IMG/VR virus record: IMGVR_UViG_3300025450_000108
Coordinates: 1-26,207 of that record
From: a virus
Strand: one strand, 5' to 3'
Length of the DNA stretch: 26,207 nt
Positions 1 to 22,193 of the stretch are shown piece after piece. The notes under the pieces were generated by a model that was not told the DNA's origin, ran no database searches, and saw only the letters and a list, made by a program, of their open reading frames with translations. How positions within the stretch are numbered: the stretch's first letter is position 1; every line of letters starts with the position of its first letter. The position numbers and the translations under genes are program-made.

Positions 1-3000
1 TTACCTATGATAAAGCAGGTACAGTGACTCCTTGGGTACAACGACAAGTTCTAGCTCCTCCTTATATTGCAACAAATGTAGAATTCTTATTAGGCGGTAG
101 TATTACAATCAGTAGTAATGTATTAACTAGTACTAGTGCTACTAGTAATATGCTTAACGGGTTTATTGAAGGCCCGGGTATACCTTACGGCACAACAGTT
201 ATTTCTGTAAGTGTAGGAACTAGCCTTACACTAAGTCAGGCAGCAAATGCTTCAGCTACTAATTCTACTTACAGCATTACAAGCAGTCAGAATCTGCCAA
301 CCGTACTAGCAACTTCTATAGCATTTAGTTCAGACGGTACCTGGATGGCATCATCGAGTCCGTTAGCTGGTTATGCAGTAACAGATTATTTAGGATCTTA
401 TTCAAGTGTAACTTCATATTCTTTAGGTGCTGGCATAATAGTATCCACTGGGTCTGGATCTAGTATACAATATTGGCAAGCATTAATAAATGTTCCTGCT
501 AATCATACACCTGCAATTGGATCAATCTACTGGGCTCCTTTATATTATCTACCAGTAAATTCATATGGCACATGGTCAATCTACGGTGCGTATACTAGCG
601 GAACACTAGTTATATACAAATCAAAAGTGTATCAAGCTACACAAACATTATATGGACAAACAACTGTAAACATTTATGGTACCGATGGCAGTTCATATAT
701 TATAACAGCGGATACTACAGCCGGACTTGCGGCTGGATATGAAATAATATTTGCTGAAAACAGTTTTGGCGGAATATTAGCTGGCGGAATTTATTATGTA
801 GCAACAGTTCTTAGTTCAACTACATTTACAATTACCGCAGTTCAGTATAGTACTAACCTAGTGCCATTAACAACTGCACAAGGAACAATGACTGCGACTC
901 AACAGCCGCAACCAAGTCCAGGATCAAACAGTCAATGGACTGATGTTACACATAGCATATTTTCTTCTAAATCTTATCAAGCAATTGATACTAATTACTA
1001 TCTTGGTGGCCCAGCCGGACAGGGTGTAATTAGTTTATACAAGAAAGATGCTAATAACAACTATTCATTAGTAGATACGATTGTTAGTCCACTAGCAGCC
1101 GCCAACGAAAACTTTGGTAGTAGTCTTGTATTTGGTAATAATGTGCTGTATGTTTCTGCTCCTGGCTATGTTAGTGGTAGTAGTCGAGTTGGTGCAGTAT
1201 ACAAATTAAAATATTCAACAATAATACAACAATCAACCAGTTATAATCCTGCTGGTAGTAGCTTTGGCACATTAAAAGTTACTAGTACTGTAGGTGTTAG
1301 AGCCGGAATGAGTGTAGTTAATTCTGCATTTACCAGCGGACAAATAGTTTTACAAGTAGTAGACAGCACAACATTGCTATTAAGTGGTAGCCCAGATTCT
1401 ACACCATCTGGAATTATTCAATTTGCTATTACTGGTTGGGGTTATGATTTTACAGAACTATATGTTGGTTCTACAGTAGGCGGAAATTTTGGTAGTGCAA
1501 TTAGTCTAAGTCAAGATAATCTTACATTAGCTATCAGCGCAAGTGGCGGCACACAAAATGGACTTGTAAAAATTTATAAAAACTCTGGTGCAGGATTTAG
1601 TCTGTTGCAAACACTAACAGGAACAGATATAGATTTTGGTATTAGCACAAGCATATCTAATTCTGGAACTTATATTGCTGTTTCTGATGATACAGCTACA
1701 GTAGGCGGTATAATTCAACGTGGCGGCGTAAGTGTCTATAGTTATAGCAACAACACATATAGTTTATATTATTCATTAGTTCCTCATATTCCAGAAACTA
1801 ACGGACATTTTGGTAATAAGATTTCTTTCATGAACGATTATGAAACACTAGTTGTTTTTAGTCAATACGGAGATACTAGACTTACCACTACATTTGATAA
1901 TAATCTAACTACATTTGATAAAAACAGTACAGATTTTGTTTATAATCAAGTAAACGGTGGTCGCATAGATGTTTATGACATGTATGCAACTAAGTGGGTC
2001 TTCAGCGAAAGTTTATCTAAATCAAATCCAATAGTAACAGCAGGCGAATTTATCGTTAATGATGTTTATCAAATTTTAACAATTGGTACAACTGACTTTA
2101 CTAAGATCGGCGCAAGCTCTAATGCTATTGGTGTAACATTTACAGCTACTGGAGATGGTTCTGGCACAGGTACTGCGGCACTAGTGACACGAGAAACAGT
2201 TGAATTAGATGGATATGGTTCTGGATTTGCGGTAGGATCTAATCACATAATAGTTGGCCTACCAGAAGCCACTGATCAGGGTTATACTTCAGGCAGAGTG
2301 TTAGATTATGGTAAACCTAATAATGCATTTACATGGACAATTGACCACACCGAAGTCGATAAACCAGATGTAACTAAAATTAAGAAAGCATTTTTATACA
2401 ATCGTGTAACAGGCGAATTAATTACACATCTTGATGTTGTTGATATTGCTCAAGGCAAGATTCCAGGCCCAGCAGATGAAGAGATTATGTACAAATCATT
2501 CTATGATCCTGCTGTCTACAGTACATTTAATGGTGTGACTTCGTCAAACACTAGTGCGGCTTGGAATAAAGATCAAGTTGGACAATTATGGTGGAATTTA
2601 AGTACAGCAAAAATTATAGATGCGTATGAAGATGATCCTGTTTACAGAAATACAAATTGGAGTACTTTAGCTACAGGTTCAACGATTGATATCTATGAAT
2701 GGATCGGCACAAAGTACAAACCAAGTCAATGGGATCAGCAAGCAGACACACCTGCTGGACTAGCATTGAATATTAGTGGAACAAGTTTGTACGGCGATAA
2801 TCAATACAGTATCCGTACAACTTATAACACAGTAACCAAATCAACTGTTACAACATATTACTACTGGGTTAAGAATAAGAAATTTATTCCTAATGTTGCC
2901 GGAAGAAATATGGCAGCACAAGATGTTTCTAGTTTAATTAGTAATCCACGTGGACAAGGGTATACTTACCTTGCTCTAACTGGACCTAACAGCTTTAGCT

Positions 3001-6000
3001 TAGTCAATGCTAAACAGTATCTAAAATCTACAGAAGTAGTGTTAAGTGTACAGTATTGGACCGGCAAGAAAACAGATCAAAACGTGCATAGTCATTGGAA
3101 TATTATTAGTGACGATCCAACAACTTATATTCCTACAGTAATTGAACAAAAATGGATTGATAGTTTATGCGGTAAAGATGTAGCAGGTAGAGAAGTTCCT
3201 GATCCAAGATTGCCACCTAAAATCCGTTATGGTATTGAAAACAGACCAAGACAAGGTATGTTTGTAAATAGATTCGAAGCATTGAAACAATTTGTGGAAT
3301 TAACAAATCAAGTTCTAGCACAGAATCAAATTGTTGAAAGTGATAATATTGCTCCTTTGGAAACATACGATCCTCAGCCTAACATAATTACTGGATTATA
3401 CGATGCTGTATTTGCCACAGATTCTGAATTGGTTTATGCAAGTGTTGGAAATTTTACTCGTCCAAGTATAACTCCAGTTGTTACTAACGGAAAAATTACA
3501 GGAGTGGTGATTAATAGCTCAGGTAAAGGATATGTAACTTCTATTAATGGTACAAAAACTGCACCTTATTTGCAAGTAAACGGCACTGGTACTGGAGCAG
3601 TAGTGCAAGCGGTAATTAATGCTAAAGGACAAATCACAGGTGCTAATATAATATCAGCAGGAGAAGGTTATACTTCTTCTACTACTATTACAGTTAGAGA
3701 TTATTCTGTACTAGTACAAAGTGATAGTCAAGCAAATGATAATTGGAGCATTTATAGTTATGATCCAATACAACAAACATGGACTAGAACACTTACACAA
3801 AGTTATGATGTAAGAAATTATTGGAGTTATGCTGACTGGTATGGATCATACACAGATACTACTGGTAAAGTAATATTTACAGCTACTCAATTTACTATTG
3901 CAAAATTCTCAGTTGCAACATTGGTAGGTTTAAACGGTATCAATGCATCTATAGGAGATACTGTAAAAGTTAGAAACAGTAATTCTGGTGGTTGGGAATT
4001 ATTATACAAGTATGCAGACTCGACTAGTGTTGATTGGACACAATCTTATGCTACTGTAGGTATACAAAATGGTACTATACAATTAAACAGTAATCTGTAT
4101 CAAACAGCAAATACTGATTTAGGTTTTGATAACACAATTTATGACTCTGTAGGATTTGATAAAATAGCGGCTACTGAATTAAGAATTATTCTTAATACTC
4201 TTAAAAATAATATCTTTACAAAAGAAAATAATTTAAACGGCAGTTACTCAGATTTATTCTTTGCCAGTGTAAGATATGCACTAAGCGAACAGCCATATGT
4301 TGATTGGATTTTCAAAACAAGTTTTGTCAAAGCACAACATAATGTTGGATCATTAGATCAACCAGTAACTTATAAACCAGACAACTTGGCAAACTTTGAA
4401 GACTACGTTAACGAAGTTAAACCATATAAGACTAAGATACGTGAGTATGTAAGCAACTATGACAGTATAGATCCTGCAGAATTACCTATCACTGACTTTG
4501 ATTTACAACCTGTTTACGAAAATGGCGTTGTTAAAGTTATAGACACTTTTGTGAGCAACGGTAAATTACAAGCATCTGATGCTAACATTAGTGCATACCC
4601 TTGGAATTTCTGGTTAACAAATGCAGGCTTTGAAGTTGTTGATTTAAAATTAACCAGCAATGGATCAAATTATATTACAGAACCTGAAGTGATATTCACT
4701 AGTGACAGTGGTTCAGGCGCAACAGCACGAGCATTTATCAGCAATAATCAAGTCAGCAGAATTGTATTATTAACTTCTGGTAGCGGTTATCTTTCAGCAC
4801 CAACTGTTACATTATTTGGTGGACTAATGCAAGGCGGTGTTGCGGCCACAGCTAGTGCTATTATTGGCAATAGTGTTGTTAGAGGAACACTGGTAGGAAT
4901 GAAATTTGATCGTGTAGATTCTACATATTTTATTTCTCAGCGTACTAAAACAGAAACATTTACTGGTTCAGGAAGTCAATTACAATTTTTATTAACCTGG
5001 GGCCCAGACATTACTTTAGGTGCAAGCACAGTTACTATTAATAATATTTTAGTATTGCGTGACACATATAAGATGTCAATTCTTAGTTCAACTGCTAAAG
5101 GATATACAACTTACTATGGAATGATACAATTTGATACAGCACCTGTTAAGGGTTCTAATATCAGTGTAACTTATCAAATTGATGCATCTTTATTACGTGC
5201 AACTGACAGAATACAGTATTTGTATAATCCAGATTCTGGAGATTTAGGTAAAGATCTAGCACAGTTAATGACAGGTATCGATTACGGTGGAGTAATTGTT
5301 AACGGTATGGGATTCCAACTATCTACTGGTTGGGATAGTTTGCCTTATTATACAGATAATTGGGACACTTACGATGAAACATTTACAGATTATAGTGTTG
5401 TAGTTAATGCTAATACTAGTCAATTTACATTGCCTTATACACCTGCCGCAGGTGTGCAATTAAACTTGTATAGAACACAAACACATACTGATTCTTATCA
5501 ATCAGACGGTGTAACTACTGTCTATAATTATAGTTTATCAGATATTTTACCATATGTGACAGTTGTAAATAATCTTGCAACTACTTCAGTAACAGTAGTT
5601 GGTAGTTTAACTATTGTAGTTTCTAGTACAGCAAGTTTAAAAGTAAATGATGTTGTTACATTAGCAAATTATAGTGCGTTTAGTTATAACACTACTATTG
5701 CTGGTATCAATGCCAATACTATTACACTAAGCAACATTATATATGAAGCTATTCCGCAAGGAACTTATATTACATTTACTAGAACACTAGTGTCTCCAAC
5801 AGATGTAGTTATAAATTCAGACGGACAAATACAATTAACAAATTTATCTAATTCAAAAATACACACTGGAACAATTATTAATATTGTTGGACAATTAAAT
5901 CCAGTAAGATTAGATGATCCGTTTTACAATATACAACCATTTATACAAGATCTTGTAAATGCATTTGTTTATGATACTGCATATACTACACCAAATTCTA

Positions 6001-9000
6001 TTAGTAATTTACAAAGTATTTTTGTAGCTCTTGAAATACTAGATCAAGTTACAACTTATGGATTTGATCCTGCGGCCACAGCATTTAGTGTAACAACTAT
6101 TGCAAATACGATATTGGCTATACCAGAAGTAGCCGCAAATACTAATGCGGTTGCTACTATTAAGACTAACCTTGCTACTATTGTAGGAATTATTGAACAA
6201 ACTAACTTCGGAGTAATTCCAACTCCTGAATTTCCTATTCCTGCAGGATCTGGGATACCAGTAAGTGTTTCTAATATTGGTACATTATTGTTTGATAATA
6301 TTCCTTATATTCAGGCCGAAATAGTAGCATACATAACTGCACATTATCCTAGTGTAACTTATAGTCATACTAGTTGCCAGCGCGATGTTCAATATGTTGT
6401 ATGGGCTTTGATATACGATTTAACCTATGGCGGTAACAGTCAAATGACTCACGCCGGCTTGAGATATTGGTTGTATAACAGTGTATTAGATGTAGAACCA
6501 GCAAACTATTGGGAAGATGTCTACACACATTTTAAAACTTTGTGTATAGATATTATTACAAATACCGCATTTAGTTCTTTACAAAATATTTTTACACAAT
6601 ATATTAATACTGGACTAAGCGGCGGCGCAGGATTTGTAAGTACTTTAACAAATATTGTAAACAGATTTTTAGAAATTATTGGATCTCCATCTAATCCTAC
6701 TACAATATACACTTCTCTTATAGATTATTCAGATTTATTTGGTATTGCTCCGTATGATCTAGGAGTAGTAGCAGGCGCAATCCAGGCTGCTACATCGTTA
6801 ACGCCACCTTATAATAAAAATGCCATTGTAAACACATTCTTGTCTAATGGAATTTCAGACAGCAATGGAGTTATTACAAAAACATTTAGCATACCAGCTC
6901 CTTATAATTCTATAGACGGTGGAGCATCGTTTACTACATTAGATTCAGAAATAGATGACGGTGGCAGTGCAAGTTCATCTAGCCCATCTGTAGTAGATGA
7001 AGGCGGTAGTGCAAGTTCAAATGCATTTGTTGTCAACGCAGGAGATGAGTTCATTATAAGACAAACTACTAGCGATGGTAGCATTACTCCAAAATCAACA
7101 GATTACGATACTAGCCTAAGCGGCGGAGATACTAGCCAGCTAAATGGTGTTTATCTTACCGCTACAGGACTTGCTGCCGACGACATTATTGTAGACGGTG
7201 ACGATTTTGTAACACCAACATCTAGTCCTGCTCCAGAAGAAGTTGTACCAGGTCAAGTAGTTGATACAGTCGCTATTAAAGTATTTGATAAACCAACTAA
7301 TGGCGCCGCCACAATGAGAGCTGACAATTATATTGGAGACGGTGTTACTACTAGTTTTGCTCTTAGCCAACAGCCAAATAGCAAAGGTGCAGTAATTGTA
7401 AAATTAAATGATACAGTTAAAACTTTGAATACTGATTATACGGTTGATTATAGAAATCGACTAGTAGTGTTTAATACAGCGCCTGCATCTAATGTACAAG
7501 TTAGTTTATTCAGTATTGGATTCAGTGGTGCTAACATATTAGATATAGATCATTTTATCGGTGATGGTTATACTACTGAATTTGTCAGTAATGCAAAATG
7601 GCAAAATCCAATTACTACATTAGTCTATCTTGACGGTATTGTTGCAACTCCTGAGGTGTTTGAAACTAATTTGTCTTATGAATTTAGTAATGCAGTGGCA
7701 TTTAGATTTTCAAGTGCTCCTGCACAAGGTGTTTTAATTAGCTTTGTAATTGTTGCAGGTAACCAACAGACATTTGCAATTACAAAGGTAGAAACTGTAG
7801 CTACTAATGGTTCATTGACCTACACACTACAAAATAAAATTGGTAATTCTTTACCAAATGAATCAAATATGATTGTTCGTGTAGATCAAAACATTTTATC
7901 TGGACCTGTTAACAATTATTTTACAATTGGTAGTAATAGATTAAATTATACAATTGATCCTACAAAATTTGTTCCATTCAGCGTTCCTATTACTAACATA
8001 TCTGTATTAGTTGGAAGTACTGTATTGAAACAAGGTTCAGACTACATTGTTGATTTAGGTGGCATTACAATTAAAATTACAAAAGCTGTTTATAAACTAT
8101 ATTCAGGACAACAATTAATTATAAGCGTTATTACAAACGAGGGATATATTTATAATCCTGGCACAAATCAAATTACGTTTGCACAGGCTTATGACAATAC
8201 ACACCTAGTACAAGTTATTAGTAGCTACCAGCATGATATATTGAATATTCAACGTACTGCGGTTAGTGTAACTAGTGATGCAGAACTAGTACCTAATAGT
8301 GCAAGTTTTTATTATTACCAATCAGCGGCCGGCGGATTAATACAGTTGGACCGTCCAGTAATTAATGATTATTATGTATGGGTAATTAAAAATTCAACAT
8401 TGTTAACACCTACAGTAGAATACAAGTTAAATGACGATTTGCAAAGTATTACACTTTCAACATCTTTACTTTCTACTGATGTAATTACTTTAATTACATT
8501 TGGTTCTAATATTGTAACATCTGGCGTTGCTTACATGCAATTTAAAGACATGTTAAATCGTGTAAGTTATAAACGTCTAAGTGTAAACAAACAAACAACA
8601 CTTGCAAAGAATTTAAAATGGAACGATACATCAATCGTCTTAACAGATGCTAGCAACTTCGAAGCTCCAAATCCAGCAGCCAATAAACCTGGTGTAGTTG
8701 AGATAAGAGGTGAACGTATTGAATATTTTGCAATTAATTATTCAACAAACACGCTAAGTCAACTACGCAGAGGTACTTTAGGAACTGGTGTGTTTAGTCT
8801 TAACCTTGTAGGATCTAATGTACAAGATATAGGTGGAGCCGAAACTATTCCTTATACAGATTCTCAGATTGTAAAACAAGTAATTAGTGACGGCAGTAAC
8901 ACAGTTCCTTTAGATTTTATTCCTAAAAATGTTAACGAAATCGAAGTATTCGTTGGCGGTTATAATAATGGAGGAGAATGGACAAGCGGTGCAACTTATT

Positions 9001-9467
9001 CGGTTGGAGCAATAGTAAACCAAGGACCATATAGTTATCGATGTGTTACTGCTCATACAAGTACAACATTCTTTGCAGACATTGCTAACTGGGCATTCTT
9101 TATTGGAAACATACGTTTGAAGAAAACTGCATACTCAGTTTTTAATATTAACAATGCTCCTGATAGTCCTGCTGGCGATGTCACATTCCCTGCAGACTTT
9201 ACAGTCGACGGAACTAGTGCCAAAATAACATTGACTAATTTGTTAGATTTTGGAACACAAGTAACTATAGTTAAAAATACAGGCTCAGCATGGGATAATT
9301 CTACTAGCGTATTATATGATACAACAACAATAGGACAATTCCTGAGAGCAACTCCGGGCATTTGGTATAGTGAGTACAAGCAGATAAGTACTACACCAAC
9401 CGGAACATTTGACAGTGCTGGTGATACTTTAGATAGTAGTTCTGGCGAAACATTCGATCAAGGATAA
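1..9467 (+). CDS. Giant mosaic phage structural protein (5'-partial), probably tail or baseplate associated
   Basis: The reading frame is open to the window edge: codons upstream of the GTG at 24 read T-Y-D-K-A-G-T with no stop. The gene therefore begins outside the window and the GTG is probably not the start. At least 3,150 codons remain. Visible modules, in order: FG-GAP/beta-propeller-like blades (NFGSSLVFG near 1110, NFGSAISLS near 1490, HFGNKISF near 1806, GYGSGFAVG near 2212); a GTTDFTKIGA..GVTFTATG module (2063-2178); two GSGY-type beta modules (about 3496-3690 and 4633-4824); a VKPYKTKIREY segment (about 4420); a helical segment (about 5906-6870) containing CQRDV..YDLTYGGNSQ; an Asp/Gly/Ser linker (about 6914-7060); a TATGLAADDIIVDGDDF/PEEVVPGQV segment (about 7160-7270); two IGDG..TT.F beta modules (7330-7760); and a carbohydrate-binding-like insertion (8979-9092). 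I recall such modules in structural proteins of T4-like aquatic phages; the exact virion location is inferred. No signal peptide or enzymatic motif was recognised. Confidence 0.85.
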   Translation, partial: TYDKAGTVTPWVQRQVLAPPYIATNVEFLLGGSITISSNVLTSTSATSNMLNGFIEGPGIPYGTTVISVSVGTSLTLSQAANASATNSTYSITSSQNLPTVLATSIAFSSDGTWMASSSPLAGYAVTDYLGSYSSVTSYSLGAGIIVSTGSGSSIQYWQALINVPANHTPAIGSIYWAPLYYLPVNSYGTWSIYGAYTSGTLVIYKSKVYQATQTLYGQTTVNIYGTDGSSYIITADTTAGLAAGYEIIFAENSFGGILAGGIYYVATVLSSTTFTITAVQYSTNLVPLTTAQGTMTATQQPQPSPGSNSQWTDVTHSIFSSKSYQAIDTNYYLGGPAGQGVISLYKKDANNNYSLVDTIVSPLAAANENFGSSLVFGNNVLYVSAPGYVSGSSRVGAVYKLKYSTIIQQSTSYNPAGSSFGTLKVTSTVGVRAGMSVVNSAFTSGQIVLQVVDSTTLLLSGSPDSTPSGIIQFAITGWGYDFTELYVGSTVGGNFGSAISLSQDNLTLAISASGGTQNGLVKIYKNSGAGFSLLQTLTGTDIDFGISTSISNSGTYIAVSDDTATVGGIIQRGGVSVYSYSNNTYSLYYSLVPHIPETNGHFGNKISFMNDYETLVVFSQYGDTRLTTTFDNNLTTFDKNSTDFVYNQVNGGRIDVYDMYATKWVFSESLSKSNPIVTAGEFIVNDVYQILTIGTTDFTKIGASSNAIGVTFTATGDGSGTGTAALVTRETVELDGYGSGFAVGSNHIIVGLPEATDQGYTSGRVLDYGKPNNAFTWTIDHTEVDKPDVTKIKKAFLYNRVTGELITHLDVVDIAQGKIPGPADEEIMYKSFYDPAVYSTFNGVTSSNTSAAWNKDQVGQLWWNLSTAKIIDAYEDDPVYRNTNWSTLATGSTIDIYEWIGTKYKPSQWDQQADTPAGLALNISGTSLYGDNQYSIRTTYNTVTKSTVTTYYYWVKNKKFIPNVAGRNMAAQDVSSLISNPRGQGYTYLALTGPNSFSLVNAKQYLKSTEVVLSVQYWTGKKTDQNVHSHWNIISDDPTTYIPTVIEQKWIDSLCGKDVAGREVPDPRLPPKIRYGIENRPRQGMFVNRFEALKQFVELTNQVLAQNQIVESDNIAPLETYDPQPNIITGLYDAVFATDSELVYASVGNFTRPSITPVVTNGKITGVVINSSGKGYVTSINGTKTAPYLQVNGTGTGAVVQAVINAKGQITGANIISAGEGYTSSTTITVRDYSVLVQSDSQANDNWSIYSYDPIQQTWTRTLTQSYDVRNYWSYADWYGSYTDTTGKVIFTATQFTIAKFSVATLVGLNGINASIGDTVKVRNSNSGGWELLYKYADSTSVDWTQSYATVGIQNGTIQLNSNLYQTANTDLGFDNTIYDSVGFDKIAATELRIILNTLKNNIFTKENNLNGSYSDLFFASVRYALSEQPYVDWIFKTSFVKAQHNVGSLDQPVTYKPDNLANFEDYVNEVKPYKTKIREYVSNYDSIDPAELPITDFDLQPVYENGVVKVIDTFVSNGKLQASDANISAYPWNFWLTNAGFEVVDLKLTSNGSNYITEPEVIFTSDSGSGATARAFISNNQVSRIVLLTSGSGYLSAPTVTLFGGLMQGGVAATASAIIGNSVVRGTLVGMKFDRVDSTYFISQRTKTETFTGSGSQLQFLLTWGPDITLGASTVTINNILVLRDTYKMSILSSTAKGYTTYYGMIQFDTAPVKGSNISVTYQIDASLLRATDRIQYLYNPDSGDLGKDLAQLMTGIDYGGVIVNGMGFQLSTGWDSLPYYTDNWDTYDETFTDYSVVVNANTSQFTLPYTPAAGVQLNLYRTQTHTDSYQSDGVTTVYNYSLSDILPYVTVVNNLATTSVTVVGSLTIVVSSTASLKVNDVVTLANYSAFSYNTTIAGINANTITLSNIIYEAIPQGTYITFTRTLVSPTDVVINSDGQIQLTNLSNSKIHTGTIINIVGQLNPVRLDDPFYNIQPFIQDLVNAFVYDTAYTTPNSISNLQSIFVALEILDQVTTYGFDPAATAFSVTTIANTILAIPEVAANTNAVATIKTNLATIVGIIEQTNFGVIPTPEFPIPAGSGIPVSVSNIGTLLFDNIPYIQAEIVAYITAHYPSVTYSHTSCQRDVQYVVWALIYDLTYGGNSQMTHAGLRYWLYNSVLDVEPANYWEDVYTHFKTLCIDIITNTAFSSLQNIFTQYINTGLSGGAGFVSTLTNIVNRFLEIIGSPSNPTTIYTSLIDYSDLFGIAPYDLGVVAGAIQAATSLTPPYNKNAIVNTFLSNGISDSNGVITKTFSIPAPYNSIDGGASFTTLDSEIDDGGSASSSSPSVVDEGGSASSNAFVVNAGDEFIIRQTTSDGSITPKSTDYDTSLSGGDTSQLNGVYLTATGLAADDIIVDGDDFVTPTSSPAPEEVVPGQVVDTVAIKVFDKPTNGAATMRADNYIGDGVTTSFALSQQPNSKGAVIVKLNDTVKTLNTDYTVDYRNRLVVFNTAPASNVQVSLFSIGFSGANILDIDHFIGDGYTTEFVSNAKWQNPITTLVYLDGIVATPEVFETNLSYEFSNAVAFRFSSAPAQGVLISFVIVAGNQQTFAITKVETVATNGSLTYTLQNKIGNSLPNESNMIVRVDQNILSGPVNNYFTIGSNRLNYTIDPTKFVPFSVPITNISVLVGSTVLKQGSDYIVDLGGITIKITKAVYKLYSGQQLIISVITNEGYIYNPGTNQITFAQAYDNTHLVQVISSYQHDILNIQRTAVSVTSDAELVPNSASFYYYQSAAGGLIQLDRPVINDYYVWVIKNSTLLTPTVEYKLNDDLQSITLSTSLLSTDVITLITFGSNIVTSGVAYMQFKDMLNRVSYKRLSVNKQTTLAKNLKWNDTSIVLTDASNFEAPNPAANKPGVVEIRGERIEYFAINYSTNTLSQLRRGTLGTGVFSLNLVGSNVQDIGGAETIPYTDSQIVKQVISDGSNTVPLDFIPKNVNEIEVFVGGYNNGGEWTSGATYSVGAIVNQGPYSYRCVTAHTSTTFFADIANWAFFIGNIRLKKTAYSVFNINNAPDSPAGDVTFPADFTVDGTSAKITLTNLLDFGTQVTIVKNTGSAWDNSTSVLYDTTTIGQFLRATPGIWYSEYKQISTTPTGTFDSAGDTLDSSSGETFDQG
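6369..6470 (+). other. CxRDV / YDLTYGGNS helical phage module in the giant protein
   Basis: Cys at residue about 2118 (codon at 6375) is followed by QRDV, a hydrophobic helix and YDLTYGGNSQ, then an AGLRYW stretch. The pattern C-x-R-D-V ... YD..YGGNS matches a module I recall from structural proteins of T4-like marine phages. The region around it (about 5906-6870) looks largely helical, unlike the beta-rich rest of the protein. Its role is unknown. Confidence 0.5.
6914..7060 (+). repeat. Asp/Gly/Ser-rich linker with near-duplicate DDGGSASS / DEGGSASS units
   Basis: Within the giant gene the translation passes through DGGAS, then DDGGSASS, then DEGGSASS. The last two are near-identical at DNA level (ggcagtgcaagttca versus ggtagtgcaagttca). 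It is acidic, flexible and low in complexity, so it probably links the helical segment to the C-terminal beta modules. Confidence 0.5.
8979..9092 (+). other. Carbohydrate-binding-like module inside the giant structural protein
   Basis: Counting from the GTG at 24, residues about 2986-3023 run W-T-S-G-A-T-Y-S-V-G-A-I-V, then G-P-Y-S-Y-R-C, then an A-H-T-S-x-x-F segment ending in N-W. The order of aromatic and Gly residues resembles small CBM5/12-like or phage fibre sugar-binding modules (W..ay..G..V...g..Y.C...H.S...W). It interrupts a beta module resembling the IGDG-type repeats earlier in the protein. The resemblance is by eye, and sugar binding is inferred. Confidence 0.4.
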
Positions 9468-9471
9468 TAAG

Positions 9472-12189
9472 ATGACGCAACAGTTCATTAATACAGGTAC
9501 AATAGCAGGAGATCATACTGGTGACAGTTTGCGTACTGCCGGGCTAAAAATAAATGCAAATTTTACAGAAATTTACGGCACTTTAGCTCAAAATTCTTTT
9601 CCAATACAAACTAATAACGCTGGAAAAGTTTTAATTACCAATGGTACAGCACTTAGTTGGCAACAATTAAGTAGTATAGCTAGCGGAAATTTTAGCGTAT
9701 CCATAGATACTAGTGGCAATTTAAATTTACCATCAAATTTGATACTCAACGGAGGAAATGCCGCACTTACAATAACTAGTGCTACTGCTCTTACTGTTCC
9801 TACATTAAAATTTGCTGATGCAAGTCAACAATCTACTGCATATTTAGGCACAGCCACCACAAGTCAAATTGGCGGTGTAAAACCTGACGGTTCTACAATT
9901 ACAATTAGTAACGGAGTAATCAGTGCTGTTCCTGGTTCTTATGTATTACCAACAGCAAGTTTAACTACACTAGGCGGTGTTAAAGTTGACGGATCTACTG
10001 TAACAATTAGCAATGGAGTTATAACTAGTCATACAAATTATAGTCTTCCAACATCAACTACTAGTGTACTTGGTGGAGTTAAAATAGATGGTTCTACAAT
10101 TACAATCAGTAACGGTGTAATTAGTGCAACACCATATAGTTTACCAACTGCTACCGCAGGTACAATTAGTACAGGTACATTAGGCGGTGTTAAAGTTGAT
10201 GGAACAAGTATAGCAATTAATAACGGAGTAATTAGTACAGGTGTACTAACAAGTAGTCAAGTAACTTCAGCTTTAGGATTTACTCCATATAATGCAACTA
10301 ATCCAAATAATTATATTGCGTTACCTGCATTAAGTGTTACCAATGCATCTGCTAGTAGTACTGCATCACTAGCTTATAACAATTCAACTGGTGTATTTAC
10401 ATTTACACCGGCAACAGCTTATGTATTACCAACAGCAAACATAGCTACACTTGGCGGAGTTAAAGTAGATGGAACAAGTATTATTATTGCCAGCGGAGTT
10501 ATTAGTGTTCCTGCTATAGCAACTATAGGACAAAACAGTGGTATTGCTACATTAGATAGTACTGGACGATTAACTGCTAGTCAAATTCCTACTAGCCTAA
10601 CTGGTGCAGTTATTTTTAAAGGCACATGGAATGCTACTACAAATAATCCTACACTAACAAATGGTACAGGAACAACTGGCTGGGAATATGCAGTCAGTGT
10701 AGGCGGAACAATTAACTTAGGCGCAGGAAACATTACATTTAATGCTGGTGATTATGTAATTTATAATGGAACTGCATGGCAACAAATTCCAGGTGGAGCC
10801 ACTACAACAGCAAATTCTTTAAGTGGTACTACACTAGCGGCTAACGTTGTTAATTCAAGTTTAACCAGCGTAGGTATACTAACAAACTTAACTGTAACAA
10901 ACACTATTGTTGGTAACATTAGTGGAAATGCGGCAACAGTAACTAGTATCAGTGGTAATTCTTTAACTATTGGTCAAATTACTGGAGCATTAGGTTATAC
11001 TCCGTTGTCAACAAACAGTTTGAGTATAATAACAAACGGTGCTAGCGGAAATGGATCGTTGAGTTATCTAAACAATGTGTTTACATTTACTCCTCCAGCT
11101 CCTTATAGTTTACCAACAGCAAGTGCATTAGTGCTTGGCGGAGTCAAAGTAGATGGAACTAGTATTACAATTAACGGTGGCATAATTAGTGCAACACCTT
11201 ATAGTTTACCAACTGCAACAACTGGTGTACTTGGTGGTGTTAAAGTAGATGGTTCAACTATTACAATTAATAATGGCGTGATTAGCAGTGTTGGCGGCTA
11301 TACATTACCGACAGCAACAACAAGTGTACTAGGCGGCGTTAAAGTAGACGGATCAACCATTTCAATTACTAATGGAATCATTAGTGCCAACTATACAAAT
11401 TATACATTGCCAACTGCTACAACAAATATTTTAGGTGGTGTTAAAGTAGACGGAACCACTATTACAATTAGTAATGGAGTAATTAGTAGTGCTAGTGCTT
11501 ATTCATTACCAACAGCTACTACGAGTATATTAGGTGGTGTAAAAGTTGATGGAACTACTATTACAATCAACGGTGGCGGCGTAATTAGTTCTGCTCAATA
11601 TACTTTGCCAACAGCAAGCACAACAGTTTCTGGCGGAATTAAAATTGATGGATCAACTTTAACATTTAATGGCAGCGGTCAATTAGTTGCTAATTATACA
11701 AATTATTCATTACCAACTGCAACAACTGGTGTACTTGGTGGTGTTAAAGTTGACGGTTCTACAATTACTATTAGTAATGGTGTAATTAGTTCAGTACAAC
11801 CAACTGGATTACAAAGTCGTTCAACTGTACAAGTAATAACAGGCAGCCTTGCTTATCAATCTTATACGTTGACTAATACAGCAATGGCCAAAGGATATGT
11901 TTTATACAGTATACAAGTTAATGCAGGAGCATGGGTAACAGTTTACACAAGTTCTACAGCACAATCGAATGATGCTTCAAGAGCAATTACAACAGATCCA
12001 ACACCAGGTAGTGGTGTTGTAGCGGAAGCAATAACAACAACTGCAACAACAACATATTTTACACCTGCAGTTTATGGATATAACGCAGATCCTTCAATTA
12101 GTTCAACAACTTATTTGAAAGTTTACAATAATAGTGGGTCATCAAATACTATTACAGTAACATTAACATATCTTAAATTAGAAGTATAA
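9472..12189 (+). CDS. Repeat-rich phage tail fibre protein
   Basis: 905 aa. The N-terminus (residues 1-36, NTGTIAGDHTGDSLRTAGLK then INANFTEIYG) is a common start module of aquatic phage fibre proteins. The body carries twelve copies of a unit with core LGGVKVDGSTITISNGVIS, usually preceded by LPTATT. The series is interrupted by LGFTP/LGYTPL motifs (near 10273 and 10985) and by a GAVIFKGTWNATT..GDYVIYNGTAWQQIPGG module (about 10603-10799) typical of phage fibres. The last 125 residues or so (from about 781) lose the repeat and form a beta-rich C-terminal domain (GYVLYSIQ..AWVTVYTS..YLKVYNNSG). That domain is a candidate receptor-binding tip or attachment domain. The ATG follows the upstream stop by 4 nt, with AAGGA at 9460-9464, so the gene is probably co-translated with the giant gene. 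Ser/Thr/Asn content is very high. A fibre role is well supported; the receptor is unknown. Confidence 0.88.
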   Translation: MTQQFINTGTIAGDHTGDSLRTAGLKINANFTEIYGTLAQNSFPIQTNNAGKVLITNGTALSWQQLSSIASGNFSVSIDTSGNLNLPSNLILNGGNAALTITSATALTVPTLKFADASQQSTAYLGTATTSQIGGVKPDGSTITISNGVISAVPGSYVLPTASLTTLGGVKVDGSTVTISNGVITSHTNYSLPTSTTSVLGGVKIDGSTITISNGVISATPYSLPTATAGTISTGTLGGVKVDGTSIAINNGVISTGVLTSSQVTSALGFTPYNATNPNNYIALPALSVTNASASSTASLAYNNSTGVFTFTPATAYVLPTANIATLGGVKVDGTSIIIASGVISVPAIATIGQNSGIATLDSTGRLTASQIPTSLTGAVIFKGTWNATTNNPTLTNGTGTTGWEYAVSVGGTINLGAGNITFNAGDYVIYNGTAWQQIPGGATTTANSLSGTTLAANVVNSSLTSVGILTNLTVTNTIVGNISGNAATVTSISGNSLTIGQITGALGYTPLSTNSLSIITNGASGNGSLSYLNNVFTFTPPAPYSLPTASALVLGGVKVDGTSITINGGIISATPYSLPTATTGVLGGVKVDGSTITINNGVISSVGGYTLPTATTSVLGGVKVDGSTISITNGIISANYTNYTLPTATTNILGGVKVDGTTITISNGVISSASAYSLPTATTSILGGVKVDGTTITINGGGVISSAQYTLPTASTTVSGGIKIDGSTLTFNGSGQLVANYTNYSLPTATTGVLGGVKVDGSTITISNGVISSVQPTGLQSRSTVQVITGSLAYQSYTLTNTAMAKGYVLYSIQVNAGAWVTVYTSSTAQSNDASRAITTDPTPGSGVVAEAITTTATTTYFTPAVYGYNADPSISSTTYLKVYNNSGSSNTITVTLTYLKLEV
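9866..11809 (+). repeat. Twelve degenerate GGVKVDGSTITISNGVIS-type repeats in the fibre gene
   Basis: Units with core GGVK(V/I)DG(S/T)(T/S)I(T/A)I.NGVIS recur twelve times. The last seven (from about 11110) are nearly contiguous with a period of roughly 30-37 residues. The first five are more loosely spaced and interrupted by other fibre modules. Copies 10 and 11 are the most divergent: copy 10 has NGGGVIS, and copy 11 has SGGIKIDGSTLTFNGSGQL. The DNA also repeats in part, so length change by recombination is plausible. Confidence 0.85.
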
Positions 12190-12190
12190 C

Positions 12191-13417
12191 ATGGACTTTA
12201 AACCAGCTAACCTTGTTCTAGTAACTGTAACAGATCCTGATACAGGAGCAGTGCCAAATGCACTGCCTGTTAACGGATATCTTACCCCGCCACAAATTGC
12301 CACAGCATACGGATTACCGGCAAGCACTGGATATGGAGTTAAAATTGGAATTATCAGTCTTGGTGGTGGGTTTTTACAAAGCGACCTTAATAAATCTTTT
12401 GCCGATTTACAAACTGCTGGACTAATAGCATCAACTCTTACAGTTCCGACAATACAACAAAAATTATTTGATGGCGCAACAGGAACTTTTAGTGCTGGTG
12501 ATAATTCAAGTGGAGAAAATACTGTTGATATTTTTTGTATAGCTACTATGGTGCCACAAGCTAATATAACTATATATATTGGACAAACTTGGGCTAGTCC
12601 TATTAATCAAGCTATAGCAGATGGTTGTCATATAATTAGCATTAGTTGGGGAACTTCTGAATCTAGTGATTTTTTATCAACACAATTTTCTACAGCACTT
12701 AATAACAAACAAACAATACTTATTGCATCCGGAGATTCGGGATCTGAATGGTACACAGGTGCAGGCGGATTATCGGTTGGTTATCCAGAATCGAGCCCGT
12801 TAGTAATTTCAGTAGGCGGCACCAAACTTACACTAACAGGTGCTAATGCTAGGTCGGCAGAAACAGATGATAATAGAGATTCAAATTTTGGAACAACTTG
12901 GGGCGGCGGCGGAGGCCTAAGTACATTATTTTCTTTACCAAGTTGGCAAAATGGATTAAACTATACAAAAATTACAAATGGAGTCACAGGAAGTCCTACT
13001 GCATTAACAGTAAGAGGAGTTCCTGATATTTCAGCTCCAATGAATGTATATTCATTATATTTTAATGGTTCAATATCTGGCTACGGCGGCACAAGTCTAG
13101 CATGTCCTGTAATGGCCGGAATGTTAGCCAGATTCCAACAACTTACTGGAATACAAAGATCTAGTGTTGACTATAACACACTTTTTTACTCTAATCCTAA
13201 TGCATTCTATGATATTACAGTAGGATCTAATAATGATGTAATTACTACAGGGTATGCAGGAACAACAGGATGGGACTGTGTTACAGGCTTAGGACCACCG
13301 ACAGGAACGACACTTTATACTAAAATTCGACCAAATGTAACTTTCCCTAAACAAAATTATGGATTTCGCCCGGCATCGGGTGCAGTATATCCAAGAAAAA
13401 CAACAGGTGCTCGATAG
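12191..13417 (+). CDS. Sedolisin-family (S53, kumamolisin-like) serine-carboxyl peptidase without propeptide
   Basis: 408 aa. The catalytic pattern of MEROPS family S53 is complete: an ExxxD pair (E109, D113 in GENTVD), the oxyanion Asp (D182 in ASGDSGS) and the nucleophile Ser (S302 in GGTSLACP). A C-terminal calcium site is suggested by D341-I342 (YDITVG) and D362 (GWDCVTGLG). The N-terminus, LTPPQIATAYGLP followed by G-x-G-V-K-I-G-I-I, matches the start of the mature sedolisin domain. The roughly 190-residue propeptide usual for the family is absent, as is any signal peptide. A short basic tail (residues about 375-408, ending RKTTGAR) follows the domain. The gene starts 1 nt after the fibre stop with only a weak Shine-Dalgarno (AGAAG, 12179-12183), suggesting translational coupling. 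Family proteins cut polypeptides, usually at acid pH. The fibre context suggests virion processing or host-surface digestion, which is inference. Confidence 0.88.
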   Translation: MDFKPANLVLVTVTDPDTGAVPNALPVNGYLTPPQIATAYGLPASTGYGVKIGIISLGGGFLQSDLNKSFADLQTAGLIASTLTVPTIQQKLFDGATGTFSAGDNSSGENTVDIFCIATMVPQANITIYIGQTWASPINQAIADGCHIISISWGTSESSDFLSTQFSTALNNKQTILIASGDSGSEWYTGAGGLSVGYPESSPLVISVGGTKLTLTGANARSAETDDNRDSNFGTTWGGGGGLSTLFSLPSWQNGLNYTKITNGVTGSPTALTVRGVPDISAPMNVYSLYFNGSISGYGGTSLACPVMAGMLARFQQLTGIQRSSVDYNTLFYSNPNAFYDITVGSNNDVITTGYAGTTGWDCVTGLGPPTGTTLYTKIRPNVTFPKQNYGFRPASGAVYPRKTTGAR

Positions 13418-13469: not shown

Positions 13470-14078
13470 ATGCAGACTAAAGACGCAACAGGAATACATA
13501 TTGAGGGACATATTAAAATATATGACCCTGAATCTAAAGAAATCTACATTGACAAACGCAATGCAATTCACTATGAAAACATTAGTGTAGCTTTGGCTCA
13601 AAGCCTAGCAGATAGCGGCAACGGTTTTGTTTACAATATGGCCTTTGGTAACGGCGGAACTAGTATCGATCCAACAGGAATTATTACATACCTTACACCA
13701 AACACTAGCGGAACAAATGCTAGTCTTTACAACCAAACATACGCAAAAGTAGTCAATCAAAATAGTGCAAACAATACAGACCCTAGTAGAAATTTTATAG
13801 AAACACGACACACAACTGGAACAAATTATACAGATTTGTTTGTAACTTGTTTGTTAGATTATGGAGAGCCTAGTACTCAAAGTGCTTTTGATGTAGTGAA
13901 CAACAGCAACAGTCAGTTTGTGTTCGATGAATTAGGTCTGCAAGCCTATAATGCCAACGGGTCATATCTACTATTGACACATGTTATTTTCCATCCTGTA
14001 CTAAAAAGTCTTAATCGATTAGTTCAGATTGATTATACAGTACGTATTCAAAGTTTAACTGGATTGGTAGGAGTATAA
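13470..14078 (+). CDS. Conserved phage virion structural-type protein, function unknown
   Basis: 202 aa. It opens with a TGIHIEGHIKIYD segment, then IDKRNAIHYENIS..ALAQSLA, and a FGNGGTSIDPTGIITYL stretch. I recall this signature from structural genes of T4-like marine phages near tail fibre genes, but no defined domain is recognised. It has no signal peptide or membrane segment. The ATG has a purine-rich AAAGAGAG (13456-13463) and a late-type octamer 20 nt upstream, so this gene probably starts its own late transcript. The next gene starts 3 nt after its stop. A virion role is inferred from context and composition. Confidence 0.75.
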   Translation: MQTKDATGIHIEGHIKIYDPESKEIYIDKRNAIHYENISVALAQSLADSGNGFVYNMAFGNGGTSIDPTGIITYLTPNTSGTNASLYNQTYAKVVNQNSANNTDPSRNFIETRHTTGTNYTDLFVTCLLDYGEPSTQSAFDVVNNSNSQFVFDELGLQAYNANGSYLLLTHVIFHPVLKSLNRLVQIDYTVRIQSLTGLVGV

Positions 14079-17680: not shown

Positions 17681-19171
17681 ATGGCATATACAATCAATCA
17701 CTATAACGGAACGTTACTTGTAACAGTCGCCGACGGTACTGTTGATGCTACCACAGATTTAAAATTAGTTGGTAAAAATTACGCAGGTTACGGATCAATT
17801 CAGAACGAAAATTTTGTCTATTTGCTAGAAAATTTTGCTAATAGTACTGCTCCTGCTAGCCCATTAACTGGACAAATTTGGTTCGATAGTGGCAACAGCA
17901 AATTGAAATTTTGGGACGGTAATCAATTCCGTACTACTGGCGGTGCTGAAATTGGGTCAGTAGCACCAAGCGGCTTAACAATAGGCGATTTTTGGTTTGA
18001 TACTACAACTAATCAGTTGTTTGCGTGGGGCGGAACTAGCTTTACTTTAATTGGACCCCAAGCAGTAGCTGGTTCAGCTACTACTGAAATGTTAAGTACT
18101 AGTGTTAAAGACACATTTGGTACAAGCCATACTGTAATTGAAGCTATTGATAACGGACAAACTATTTTTATTGTTAGTGCTGACAGTGCATTTACTCTAG
18201 ATAGTACTGTAAACCCTATTACTGGTTTCACACAAATACAGCAAGGTGTAACATTAGTTAATACAAACAATGGTTCACAGCCTGGACAAACACAAAGCAG
18301 TCACAGATTCTGGGGTACAGCTACAAATGCTGATCGTTTGGGCGGTCAATTAGCTAGCAATTATGTTCAAGCAGGCAGTGCATCTTTTAGCACAGTTGTT
18401 AACTTTGCAGACGTTGGCTATACCGTTGGTAATCCTGTTGCACGTTTACGTGTATTTAATAATAACAGTAGTACACCTACTATTCAAAACGAAAGCAACA
18501 ATACTATTGTTTTCCAAACAACAAATAATGCAACAACATTAACTCCACTACAATTAGTTAACTCAGATGTATTACCAGGTGTTACTGCAACTAGTAATTT
18601 AGGTAATGGATCTTACTCTTGGTTAAGTGTAACAGCTACTAATTTTTACGGAACAGCTACTAATGCTAATAATTTAGTTATTGGTGGAACTGCTTACGCA
18701 GGAAGCGTATCAACAAGTCCTGGTACAGTTGTTGCTCGTGATGGTAGCGGTAATATTAATGCTAATACATTTAACGGTGCAAGTACAACAAGCTACTACG
18801 CTGACTTGGCAGAAAAATACTTAACACAAGAAGAATATCCACCAGGAACAGTAGTTTGTGTAGGCGGGTCAGCTGAAGTTGTAGCGGCAAGTTATGGCGA
18901 TAAACCAATTGGGGCTATCAGTACAAACCCAGCTTATAAGATGAATTCTGCACTAGAAGGCGGCCAGTATGTAGCACTTAAAGGTCGTATTCCAGTTAGA
19001 GTAGTTGGCGGATGCAGTAAAGGAGATCAAATGGCAGCTTACGGTCACGGATTAGCTGTAAGTATGAATGTCATGTTTAGCCCAGATGATACAGTACCTA
19101 TTTGTTTTGCTGTTGCTCTTGAAGATTGTTCTGAGAGCGGTGAAACACTAGTTGAATGCGTAATACTTTAA
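17681..19171 (+). CDS. Tail fibre paralogue with shared N-terminal module and distinct C-terminal DLAEKY domain
   Basis: 496 aa. It is the third copy of the shared N-terminal module (VGKNYAGYG, YLLENFANSTAP, GQIWFD, GDFWFDTTTNQLF, residues about 1-205), followed by FWGTATNADRLGG. The C-terminal part, from about residue 370 (ADLAEKY..EEYPPGTVVCVGG, IGAISTNPAYKMN, VALKGRIPVRVVG), is a domain frequent at the end of marine phage fibre and virion proteins. It loosely resembles the C-terminal chaperone or autocleaving domains of phage appendages (peptidase G2 type), but no catalytic residue is identified here. The ATG has AGGAG at 17674-17678 and its own late-type octamer. Cys residues are enriched at the C-terminus (VVCVGG, GGCSKG, ICFAV, EDCSESG, VECVIL), which is unusual for this protein set. 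Confidence 0.83.
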   Translation: MAYTINHYNGTLLVTVADGTVDATTDLKLVGKNYAGYGSIQNENFVYLLENFANSTAPASPLTGQIWFDSGNSKLKFWDGNQFRTTGGAEIGSVAPSGLTIGDFWFDTTTNQLFAWGGTSFTLIGPQAVAGSATTEMLSTSVKDTFGTSHTVIEAIDNGQTIFIVSADSAFTLDSTVNPITGFTQIQQGVTLVNTNNGSQPGQTQSSHRFWGTATNADRLGGQLASNYVQAGSASFSTVVNFADVGYTVGNPVARLRVFNNNSSTPTIQNESNNTIVFQTTNNATTLTPLQLVNSDVLPGVTATSNLGNGSYSWLSVTATNFYGTATNANNLVIGGTAYAGSVSTSPGTVVARDGSGNINANTFNGASTTSYYADLAEKYLTQEEYPPGTVVCVGGSAEVVAASYGDKPIGAISTNPAYKMNSALEGGQYVALKGRIPVRVVGGCSKGDQMAAYGHGLAVSMNVMFSPDDTVPICFAVALEDCSESGETLVECVIL

Positions 19172-20159: not shown

Positions 20160-20510
20160 ATGGATGAGAGAATTGAAAAAGCGTTTAGTGTTGCCAACTA
20201 CATGTCAACACTATCTAATCAACGCAGAATAATATTAGAAGAATACAATCAAAAGTTGATATACTATATCAACGGTGCCACGTTCAAAATTAGTCCTGAA
20301 CTAATTAATTTTACCAAAACAGTTTTGGATATGGGTCATACAGAAGATGTGGCATTCTTAGATTCAAATAATTTCCCTGTTATTATCAACGATGTCCAAA
20401 AGTTTTTCGATGATATCTCACTGATATACTTTGAGTCAACTAACGACTATGCAGTTAAATATGCAGAATTAAGAAGTAAACGAAAAATTTCAGATATAGT
20501 TGAACTATGA
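20160..20510 (+). CDS. Small phage protein of unknown function
   Basis: 116 aa from the ATG at 20160. A TTG at 20139 in the same frame gives a longer form, but it lies inside the -10/inverted repeat. The ATG has GGAG (20150-20153) at a good distance, so it is preferred. The protein is acidic and helical (MDERIEKAFSVANYMSTLSN, LINFTKTVLDMGH, VQKFFDDISLIYFES), with no recognised domain, signal or membrane segment. It is the first gene of the cluster and overlaps the next by 4 nt (ATGA). Confidence 0.75.
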   Translation: MDERIEKAFSVANYMSTLSNQRRIILEEYNQKLIYYINGATFKISPELINFTKTVLDMGHTEDVAFLDSNNFPVIINDVQKFFDDISLIYFESTNDYAVKYAELRSKRKISDIVEL

Positions 20511-21355
20511 CAACAGGCGCAGTAATTTTTGCACAAAATAATTCATCTATCGATTATATAAAACTAGCGATTTTTGCGGCTAGTAAAATACACGAGCATT
20601 TAGAAATTCCTGTAAGCATAGCTACAGACAGTAAAGACTATTTGTTAAATGCATTTCCTGATCATAAATTTGATCAAATAATTGAATTACCATATTCTAA
20701 TCAAGCATCTACAAAAAAATTCTATGACGGAGCATTAAGCTCTAAATCATTGTCTTGGAAAAATCAGGACCGTGTTAACATTTTTAATTTAACGCCTTAT
20801 GATAGAACACTAGTTATTGACAGTGATTATATCATTAATTCTCCTGTTTTAAAATCTGCTTTAGAAAACAATTACGATTTTCAAATTTATCAAAATAGTT
20901 TTGATCTAGCGTTCGAACGATACAACGAAGAATTCCAAAGAATTAATCAATACAGTATTCCGTTTTTCTGGGCAACAGTTTTTATCTTTCAAAAAAATGA
21001 AGTTAATGAACTGTTTTTTAATTTAATTTCTTATATAAAAGAAAATTGGCAATATTTTAGATTGCTTTACAATATATCTTCTAATTTGTATAGAAATGAT
21101 TTTGCTTTTAGTATTGCTATACATATCATGAGTGGTAAAATTAATAATAATTTTGCCATAGAATTACCGGGAAAAATGATATATGCAACTGATAACGATA
21201 TATTAATCAGCGCCGATGGAAATAAGATGAAATTTTTAACACAGAAAAAAGATTATCTTGGAGAATACCTAGTGACAAAAACTACAGGATTAGACGTTCA
21301 TGTAATGAATAAATTAAGCCTTAGTAGATTTATAGATGGAGGTTTAGGTGTCTAA
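20507..21355 (+). CDS. Glycosyltransferase-like protein (first of a tandem pair)
   Basis: 282 aa. The N-terminal VIFAQNNSSIDYIKLAIFAA is a Rossmann-like strand-helix, and YDRTLVIDSDYII carries a DxD-type motif (D105-S-D107) where GT-A glycosyltransferases bind a metal and nucleotide sugar. The layout is like the GT8-type fold: strand, helix, then DxD near residue 105. It is paralogous to the next gene (FAQN..S.DYI.QA at the N-terminus; PYD.T.V.D.D at the DxD). There is no membrane segment, so it probably acts in the cytoplasm. Donor and acceptor are unknown. It overlaps its upstream neighbour by 4 nt and the next by 8 nt. Confidence 0.65.
   Translation: MTTGAVIFAQNNSSIDYIKLAIFAASKIHEHLEIPVSIATDSKDYLLNAFPDHKFDQIIELPYSNQASTKKFYDGALSSKSLSWKNQDRVNIFNLTPYDRTLVIDSDYIINSPVLKSALENNYDFQIYQNSFDLAFERYNEEFQRINQYSIPFFWATVFIFQKNEVNELFFNLISYIKENWQYFRLLYNISSNLYRNDFAFSIAIHIMSGKINNNFAIELPGKMIYATDNDILISADGNKMKFLTQKKDYLGEYLVTKTTGLDVHVMNKLSLSRFIDGGLGV
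21338..21350 (+). promoter_or_regulatory. Strong ribosome binding site defining a GTG start
   Basis: GGAGG (21338-21342) lies 5 nt before GTG (21348-21350), inside the end of the upstream gene. It supports GTG as the true start of the second glycosyltransferase-like gene, whose N-terminus then aligns with its paralogue. Confidence 0.7.
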
Positions 21356-22193
21356 AGGATTTTTAGTTTTTGCACAAAATTCAGATAGTGTTGATTATAT
21401 TCAACAGGCTTATGCATTGGCATTAAGTATCAAGTACAGTCAAAACACAGTTAAGAATATTAGTCTAGTAACTAACGATGTAGTTCCTGAAAAATATAGT
21501 AAAGTATTTGATCAAATAATTCCAATTCCCTGGTTTGATTCTGCAGGTGAAAGTCCGTTACAAGCCGAACATCGCTGGAAACTTTATTATACTACACCTT
21601 ATGATGAAACAATAGTGTTAGATGCAGACATGTTTGTGTTAGGAGATATTAGTCTATGGTGGGATTATTGTAGTAATTTTGATATCAAATTTTGCAATAA
21701 AATAAGAAATTATAAGTTAGAACCAATATTACAAGATACTTACCATCGTAAAACATTTATTGCTAATAATTTACCTAACCCATATTTTGCTTTACACTAT
21801 TTTAAAAAGAATCAACCTAGTTTTGAATTTTATAAAATATTAGAATTTGTTGTAAAAAATTGGGAATTTTGTCGTGGAACATTTGCACCATTAGAACCTC
21901 AAGAATGGATCAGTATGGATTTAGCCGCATCTATTGCACTAGTTATCTCTGGCATGCAAGATGACGCTATTGACATATTAAATCCTTTAGAATTTATACA
22001 TATGAAACCGGCAATACAAGGTTGGAATTCTACACCAATCAGTTGGAGAAATTATGTTAATTCTGTATTGAATTCTAAAGGAGAATTTGTAGTAGGTAAC
22101 ATCAAGCAAGAAAAGATTTTTCATTATGTTGAAAAATCTTTTATAAATGAAAAAATAATTAATCGTTTAGAGGAGTTAGCATATGGCTCGTAA
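21348..22193 (+). CDS. Glycosyltransferase-like protein (second of a tandem pair)
   Basis: 281 aa from a GTG start with GGAGG 5 nt upstream. Residues 4-24 (GFLVFAQNSDSVDYIQQAYA and following) match the paralogue before it. YDETIVLDADMFVLGD holds D92-A-D94, the DxD motif, in a context typical of GT-A enzymes (hydrophobic strand, DxD, then a short turn). Late motifs such as EWISMDLAASIAL and EFIHMKPAIQGWN (a late His near the C-terminal third) fit such a fold. It differs enough from its twin to suggest another sugar or acceptor. Activity is inferred from motifs only. It overlaps the next gene by 11 nt. Confidence 0.68.
   Translation: MSKGFLVFAQNSDSVDYIQQAYALALSIKYSQNTVKNISLVTNDVVPEKYSKVFDQIIPIPWFDSAGESPLQAEHRWKLYYTTPYDETIVLDADMFVLGDISLWWDYCSNFDIKFCNKIRNYKLEPILQDTYHRKTFIANNLPNPYFALHYFKKNQPSFEFYKILEFVVKNWEFCRGTFAPLEPQEWISMDLAASIALVISGMQDDAIDILNPLEFIHMKPAIQGWNSTPISWRNYVNSVLNSKGEFVVGNIKQEKIFHYVEKSFINEKIINRLEELAYGS

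Follow-up and report, generated by a model that had tools for sequence, protein, structure and literature searches.

The open reading frame at 12191-13417 of the window, by which we mean the entire IMG/VR record of 26,207 bp, encodes, according to sequence comparison and structure prediction, an entire S53 (sedolisin/kumamolisin) catalytic domain, and it belongs to a large and apparently undescribed family of phage sedolisins, many of them encoded directly downstream of a conserved tail-fibre tip. We consider it probable, though well short of certain, that this peptidase is a virion component, docked on the fibre tip and cutting host surface protein. The gene has the following parts:

12191..13417 (+): S53 sedolisin without propeptide, 408 aa (phmmer, AlphaFold, Foldseek)
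12281..13339 (+): catalytic domain, residues 31-383 (alignment to mature kumamolisin)
12515..12529 (+): catalytic E109 and D113 (E-x3-D), invariant in 59 sequences
12734..12736 (+): oxyanion-hole D182, invariant in 59 sequences
13094..13096 (+): catalytic S302 (GGTSLACP), invariant in 59 sequences
13211..13276 (+): predicted calcium-site region, D341-I342 to D362 (GWD), from conservation and alignment
13340..13414 (+): type I C-terminal tail, residues 384-408, a candidate fibre-docking peptide, conserved and predicted to be flexible

The preliminary description of this DNA had proposed an S53 identity from the four catalytic positions and a C-terminal calcium-site pattern, and these attributions are borne out. 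A phmmer comparison with the PDB returned S53 structures only, and paired residues 31-383 with residues 6-359 of mature kumamolisin (E=1.6e-36). By alignment, E109, D113, D182 and S302 correspond to the kumamolisin active site residues E78, D82, D164 and S278, in the numbering of that enzyme, and none of them changes in 59 phage sequences that are 40-92% identical to the window protein. The FYDI...GWD segment aligns with the kumamolisin calcium site, with D341, I342 and D362 matched; D341 and D362 are at least 90% conserved (n=59) and invariant in the 24 closer sequences. Structure prediction of the window protein alone, which had been suggested as a check, gave the S53 fold: with the 59-sequence phage alignment AlphaFold returned a model of pLDDT 89.5 and pTM 0.89, in favour of which a single-sequence model (pLDDT 31) was dropped. 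The top Foldseek match of this model is kumamolisin-As (E=7.6e-27, target TM 0.85) and the first 17 places are taken without exception by S53 structures (kumamolisin, sedolisin, TPP1; E 1e-27 to 1e-18), with the S8 subtilisins ranking below them at E about 1e-11. Pfam's sole label for the reading frame is Peptidase_S8, which picks up S53 proteins too; the Asp-His-Ser triad of S8 is not found, a Glu/Asp pair in E-x3-D replacing the His motif. Inspection revealed no evident signal peptide, in agreement with the earlier remark that a secretion signal is absent. With kumamolisin and kumamolisin-As (MEROPS S53; PDB 1t1e, 1gt9, 1sio) the window enzyme has in common the fold, the Ser-Glu-Asp triad, the oxyanion Asp and the calcium-site pattern, but it differs from kumamolisin, which is cellular, secreted and made with a large propeptide, in having neither propeptide nor evident signal peptide, in its added C-terminal tail and fibre partner, and in a Ser at the position of kumamolisin E32.

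A large N-terminal propeptide is typical of S53, although the family is not defined by it. Its absence here, also noticed at the outset, is confirmed: the window sedolisin has no match to Pro-kuma_activ (PF09286), its ATG lies shortly 5' of the expected start of the mature enzyme, and the stop codon of the fibre gene leaves no room for a propeptide. Among 50 whole records of relatives, PF09286 is present in 17, each time within the sedolisin's own reading frame, and is found nowhere in the remaining 33, a 345-kb contig among them; a propeptide encoded by a separate gene was rejected on this distribution. Of the members shown, those with a propeptide have Glu at the position of kumamolisin E32 (with one exception, locus L090), and those without it have other residues there, mostly Ser. 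The preliminary description had suggested that the neighbouring fibre might replace the propeptide as a folding chaperone. A specific substitution of this kind is weakened by the observation that the fibre tip precedes all 17 propeptide-bearing sedolisins as well; since both forms follow the same tip, the tip is not simply a propeptide replacement, and what is left of the suggestion is that it may aid sedolisin folding.

Two scans of IMG/VR define the extent of the family. The first, with the window protein, gave 35 loci and included one pattern inside the C-terminal tail, which favours tail-bearing matches; the second, with the alignment and with catalytic-domain patterns only, gave at least 124 sedolisin stretches, of which the best 80 were kept. 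Because at least 124 stretches hold a sedolisin, we reject the possibility that the reading frame is an artefact or arose by chance. No sedolisin relatives were found among the 50,697 records of INPHARED, and the BFVD structure library gave S53-level matches in giant viruses only. These closest viral fold matches, subtilase/sedolisin proteins of Homavirus and Barrevirus (E about 1e-30), are longer than the window sedolisin and come from presumed viruses of eukaryotes, and the tailed-phage entries in BFVD match it at S8 level only (E 1e-10 or weaker). A scan of GTDB genomes gave no sign of prophage copies among the 80 loci that were kept, all of which have cellular titles and S53 proteins at most 35% identical. 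The literature searched contained no description of a phage S53 peptidase or of a fibre-tip protease, which agrees with the original statement that no characterised phage system of this kind was known; a Histophilus 'sedolisin', considered as a phage precedent, was rejected as merely a cluster name.

The sedolisin gene is surrounded by genes for virion proteins:

3..9467 (+): giant virion protein, its start beyond the record end, resembling jumbo-phage virion structural proteins
9472..12189 (+): tail-fibre protein with VDGSTITISNGVI-type repeats, the protease partner, 905 aa (Pfam Phage_head_fibr, PHROG tail / phrog_15343)
11779..12186 (+): C-terminal fibre tip domain, 136 aa, conserved partner of the sedolisin
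13470..14078 (+): protein of 202 aa, homologous to a jumbo-phage protein annotated as baseplate

As first described, 1 nt separates the stop codon of the 905-aa fibre frame from the sedolisin start. The gene had also been placed among fibre genes on both sides; as a refinement, the next gene downstream encodes the baseplate-annotated homologue. Both the 202-aa protein and the giant protein have matches in Sinorhizobium phage Phosso or Agrobacterium phage Atu_ph07 and in 121Q-like coliphages, and on the evidence of these matches the window is from a jumbo myovirus lineage. In Phosso the counterpart of the giant protein lies directly 5' of the 202-aa homologue, with no sedolisin between them; in Atu_ph07 two small reading frames alone separate the two, and again there is no sedolisin. 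Fibre and sedolisin are accessory relative to both phages, because they are absent between the giant and 202-aa genes there. Elsewhere in the window, a virion-type protein at 17681-19171 has a weak, sub-threshold match to Peptidase_G2 and may thus include a fibre chaperone domain of the self-cleaving kind; 3' of the tail genes (20507-24354) a run of four genes encodes proteins of 224-299 aa that have no Pfam matches and look glycosyltransferase-like by eye; and a thymidylate synthase ThyX (Pfam Thy1, E=2.6e-45) is encoded on the minus strand at 24308-24994.

A survey of related genomes found the sedolisin at the same position in many of them, and because the gene keeps this position, the grounds for doubt named in the preliminary description did not arise in the checks that were run. 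The tip domain, made up of the C-terminal 136 fibre residues, is present in 40 of 50 sedolisin records and lies in every one of these directly 5' of the sedolisin frame on the same strand, so that the coupling to a fibre gene, and the fibre-adjacent position of the sedolisin, hold throughout the tip-bearing records (40/40). The same order recurs in 12 of 17 further records, and the pair is kept on the 345-kb contig, where the sedolisin lies far from the 202-aa gene; in 21 of the 50 records, the 202-aa homologue is found 52-61 nt 3' of the sedolisin (in one case as a cut end only). While the fibre shaft varies, being built of VDGSTI repeats or collagen-like, the tip stays. Fibre and sedolisin genes are separated by exactly 1 nt not only in the window but also in L046, L076, L183 and L191. 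At one locus (L019:10001-11267) a frameshift, either real or a sequencing error, splits the sedolisin into two frames.

The type of C-terminal tail borne by a sedolisin follows the type of fibre end. The type I tail, R-x(2,3)-G-x-x-[YFW]-P-R and often FPKQNYGFRPxxGxxYPRKTTGxR, is carried in all 40 tip-bearing records and none of the 10 tip-less ones, as raw counts that ignore kinship. Despite its conservation it has a pLDDT of about 50 in the AlphaFold model and, being conserved yet predicted flexible, it fits the expectation for a docking peptide. The type II tail consists of three 'VKTxxxTWxxV'-like repeats; it is found in the tip-less records L055, L057, L062, L063, L064, L066 and L070 and also ends the sedolisins of L060, L069 and L071, and wherever the fibre upstream of a type II sedolisin was read, its C-terminus is GDIWYQTF or a close variant. 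This combination of W-repeat tail and GDIWYQTF-like end, a second tail/fibre-end pairing, is seen in L055, L060, L062-L064, L066 and L069-L071. L072 has related W-repeats in its sedolisin tail and an upstream fibre that ends in GDFWFQI; L043 and L058 have neither tail type and carry long extra domains instead. One sedolisin (L006:10001-11578) continues for about 117 residues beyond its type I tail. A pattern scan of IMG/VR for the C-terminal motif gave 30 contigs, five of them outside the known family; four of the five encode sedolisins and the other, L174, is cut at that point and has a flank that matches the sedolisin loci L181 and L188, so the motif was rejected as a tag on other cargo. The type I tail alone found nothing in INPHARED by tblastn.

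The position behind the tip is occupied by a different protease in cultured cyanophages. We found the tip domain in 42 phage records, nearly all of Synechococcus phages, and the gene directly after it encodes an S8 subtilase, its triad motifs recognisable, in S-H38 (PQC14_gp095), S-CREM1 (SCREM1_165), Sf-FR1, S-RSM4 (S-RSM4_039), S-H9-1 and ACG-2014h, at a spacing of 1 nt or with an overlap of about one base. The first five of these share an R..(S/T)G..(Y/F)PR-like tail with the window sedolisin, but differ in belonging to family S8, in the His of their triad and in an N-terminal extension of their own. The resemblance of their C-termini to the type I tail (S-CREM1 PKVTYRQRPTTGHIFPR, window PKQNYGFRPASGAVYPR) was also seen when the S53 and S8 tail sets were compared by hhalign (P=1.7e-5, probability 78%), though it is a short similarity. 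The same S8 protein is encoded in ACG-2014j, there 1 nt behind a short gene, and in P-SSM2 an S8 protease without a type I-like tail follows a different, collagen-like fibre. In Sf-CH1b (L206:4383-6680) the tip is followed by a 765-aa non-protease without such a tail, and the slot may therefore accept other cargo. The papers found do not describe a function for the annotated cyanophage subtilases, and the literature searched contained no virion proteome of a phage that carries the sedolisin gene; the S-SM1 virion study (PMC3037559) concerns a phage outside the S8 matches listed.

Several sedolisins are fused to further domains. At L073:6071-10159 a single reading frame of 1,362 aa encodes a cyanophage-type S8 protease followed by a sedolisin; the S8 part shares 40% identity with S-CREM1 across 524 columns and the S53 part matches kumamolisin at E=8e-21. 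Both active sites of this protein look complete. He_PIG Ig-type domains follow the sedolisin in L043, and in L046 and L072 it is fused to glycine-rich domains. Fusions to S8, Ig-type and glycine-rich partners fit a surface-exposed tail protein.

In the mechanism that we propose, the flexible C-terminal tail of the sedolisin would dock onto the tip domain of the adjacent 5' fibre, and while the phage adsorbs the docked enzyme would cut a host surface protein (S-layer, pilus, sheath or outer-membrane protein). The fold, the strongly constrained active site, the missing propeptide, the gene pairing, the agreement of tail and fibre-end types, the S8 protease behind the cyanophage tip and the domain fusions can be read from the sequences themselves; we infer a presence in the virion, contact with the tail tip, proteolysis and a host target. 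In T-even phages gp38 is encoded right after the fibre gene gp37 and sits, at least in T2-type phages, on the C-terminal end of gp37. Docking of the sedolisin may be much like that of gp38 in T2-type phages; the likeness rests on gene order and on the glycine-rich modules of some sedolisins, and gp38, unlike the window protein, is not a protease. Polysaccharide depolymerases embody the same idea of a fibre-borne enzyme that degrades the host surface, but these tailspikes are glycan-cleaving beta-helix enzymes whereas the sedolisin is a peptidase on a separate chain. A broader proposal, whose chances we would put at about even, is that of a 'protease cartridge': a fibre tip and matching docking peptide would let S53 enzymes (in these metagenomic phages) and S8 enzymes (in marine cyanophages) be swapped on the fibre end, a second tail/fibre-end pairing would serve another type of fibre, the two proteases would in one case share a single chain, and the S53 enzyme would fold without a propeptide.

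The preliminary description had left open whether the enzyme processes fibres or is borne on the virion. We favour the virion-borne role because tip and protease are conserved as a pair, because the tail type tracks the fibre end, and because of the Ig-like and glycine-rich fusions. T4 gp38 is an assembly factor for gp37, and S74 and G2 are self-cleaving fibre chaperones; a protease that binds the fibre end in the infected cell, there to trim it or act as its chaperone, and that could be missing from the finished virion would be expected to show the same tight pairing and matched tails, and the lack of a signal peptide would suit it. Such a maturation or assembly factor, the main rival, nevertheless seems unlikely to us, since the large Ig-like and glycine-rich fusions better fit a structural part, two protease families in one slot and the S8-S53 chain point to degradation more than to processing at a specific site, and no conserved cut site was recognised, in what was not a systematic search.

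An intracellular or lysis-stage protease, merely co-transcribed with the tail genes, would equally need no signal peptide and could show the accessory distribution seen here, but it predicts neither tip pairing, nor matched tails, nor tail-type domain fusions, and we think it improbable. Enzyme folds are sometimes reused in large virion proteins, so that a catalytically dead domain with a structural or binding function has precedent; against 59 divergent sequences in which all four catalytic positions are invariant, we give this very little credence. The fibre-tip protease has its own points against it, namely that Phosso and Atu_ph07 do without a sedolisin and that Sf-CH1b has behind the tip a non-protease that lacks the tail.

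If a fibre-tip protease is indeed what these genes encode, proteolysis would take its place beside the breakdown of polysaccharides as a means of entry carried on fibres, both in large phages not yet cultured and in the marine cyanophages in culture, and the 'protease cartridge' would be the protein-degrading counterpart of the polysaccharide depolymerases. It would also provide a testable docking code, in which tip domain and C-terminal peptide together attach an enzyme to a phage fibre, and would suggest functions for many 'hypothetical' genes adjoining fibre genes. A single family that holds S53 enzymes both with and without a propeptide would make the role of the propeptide in folding directly testable.
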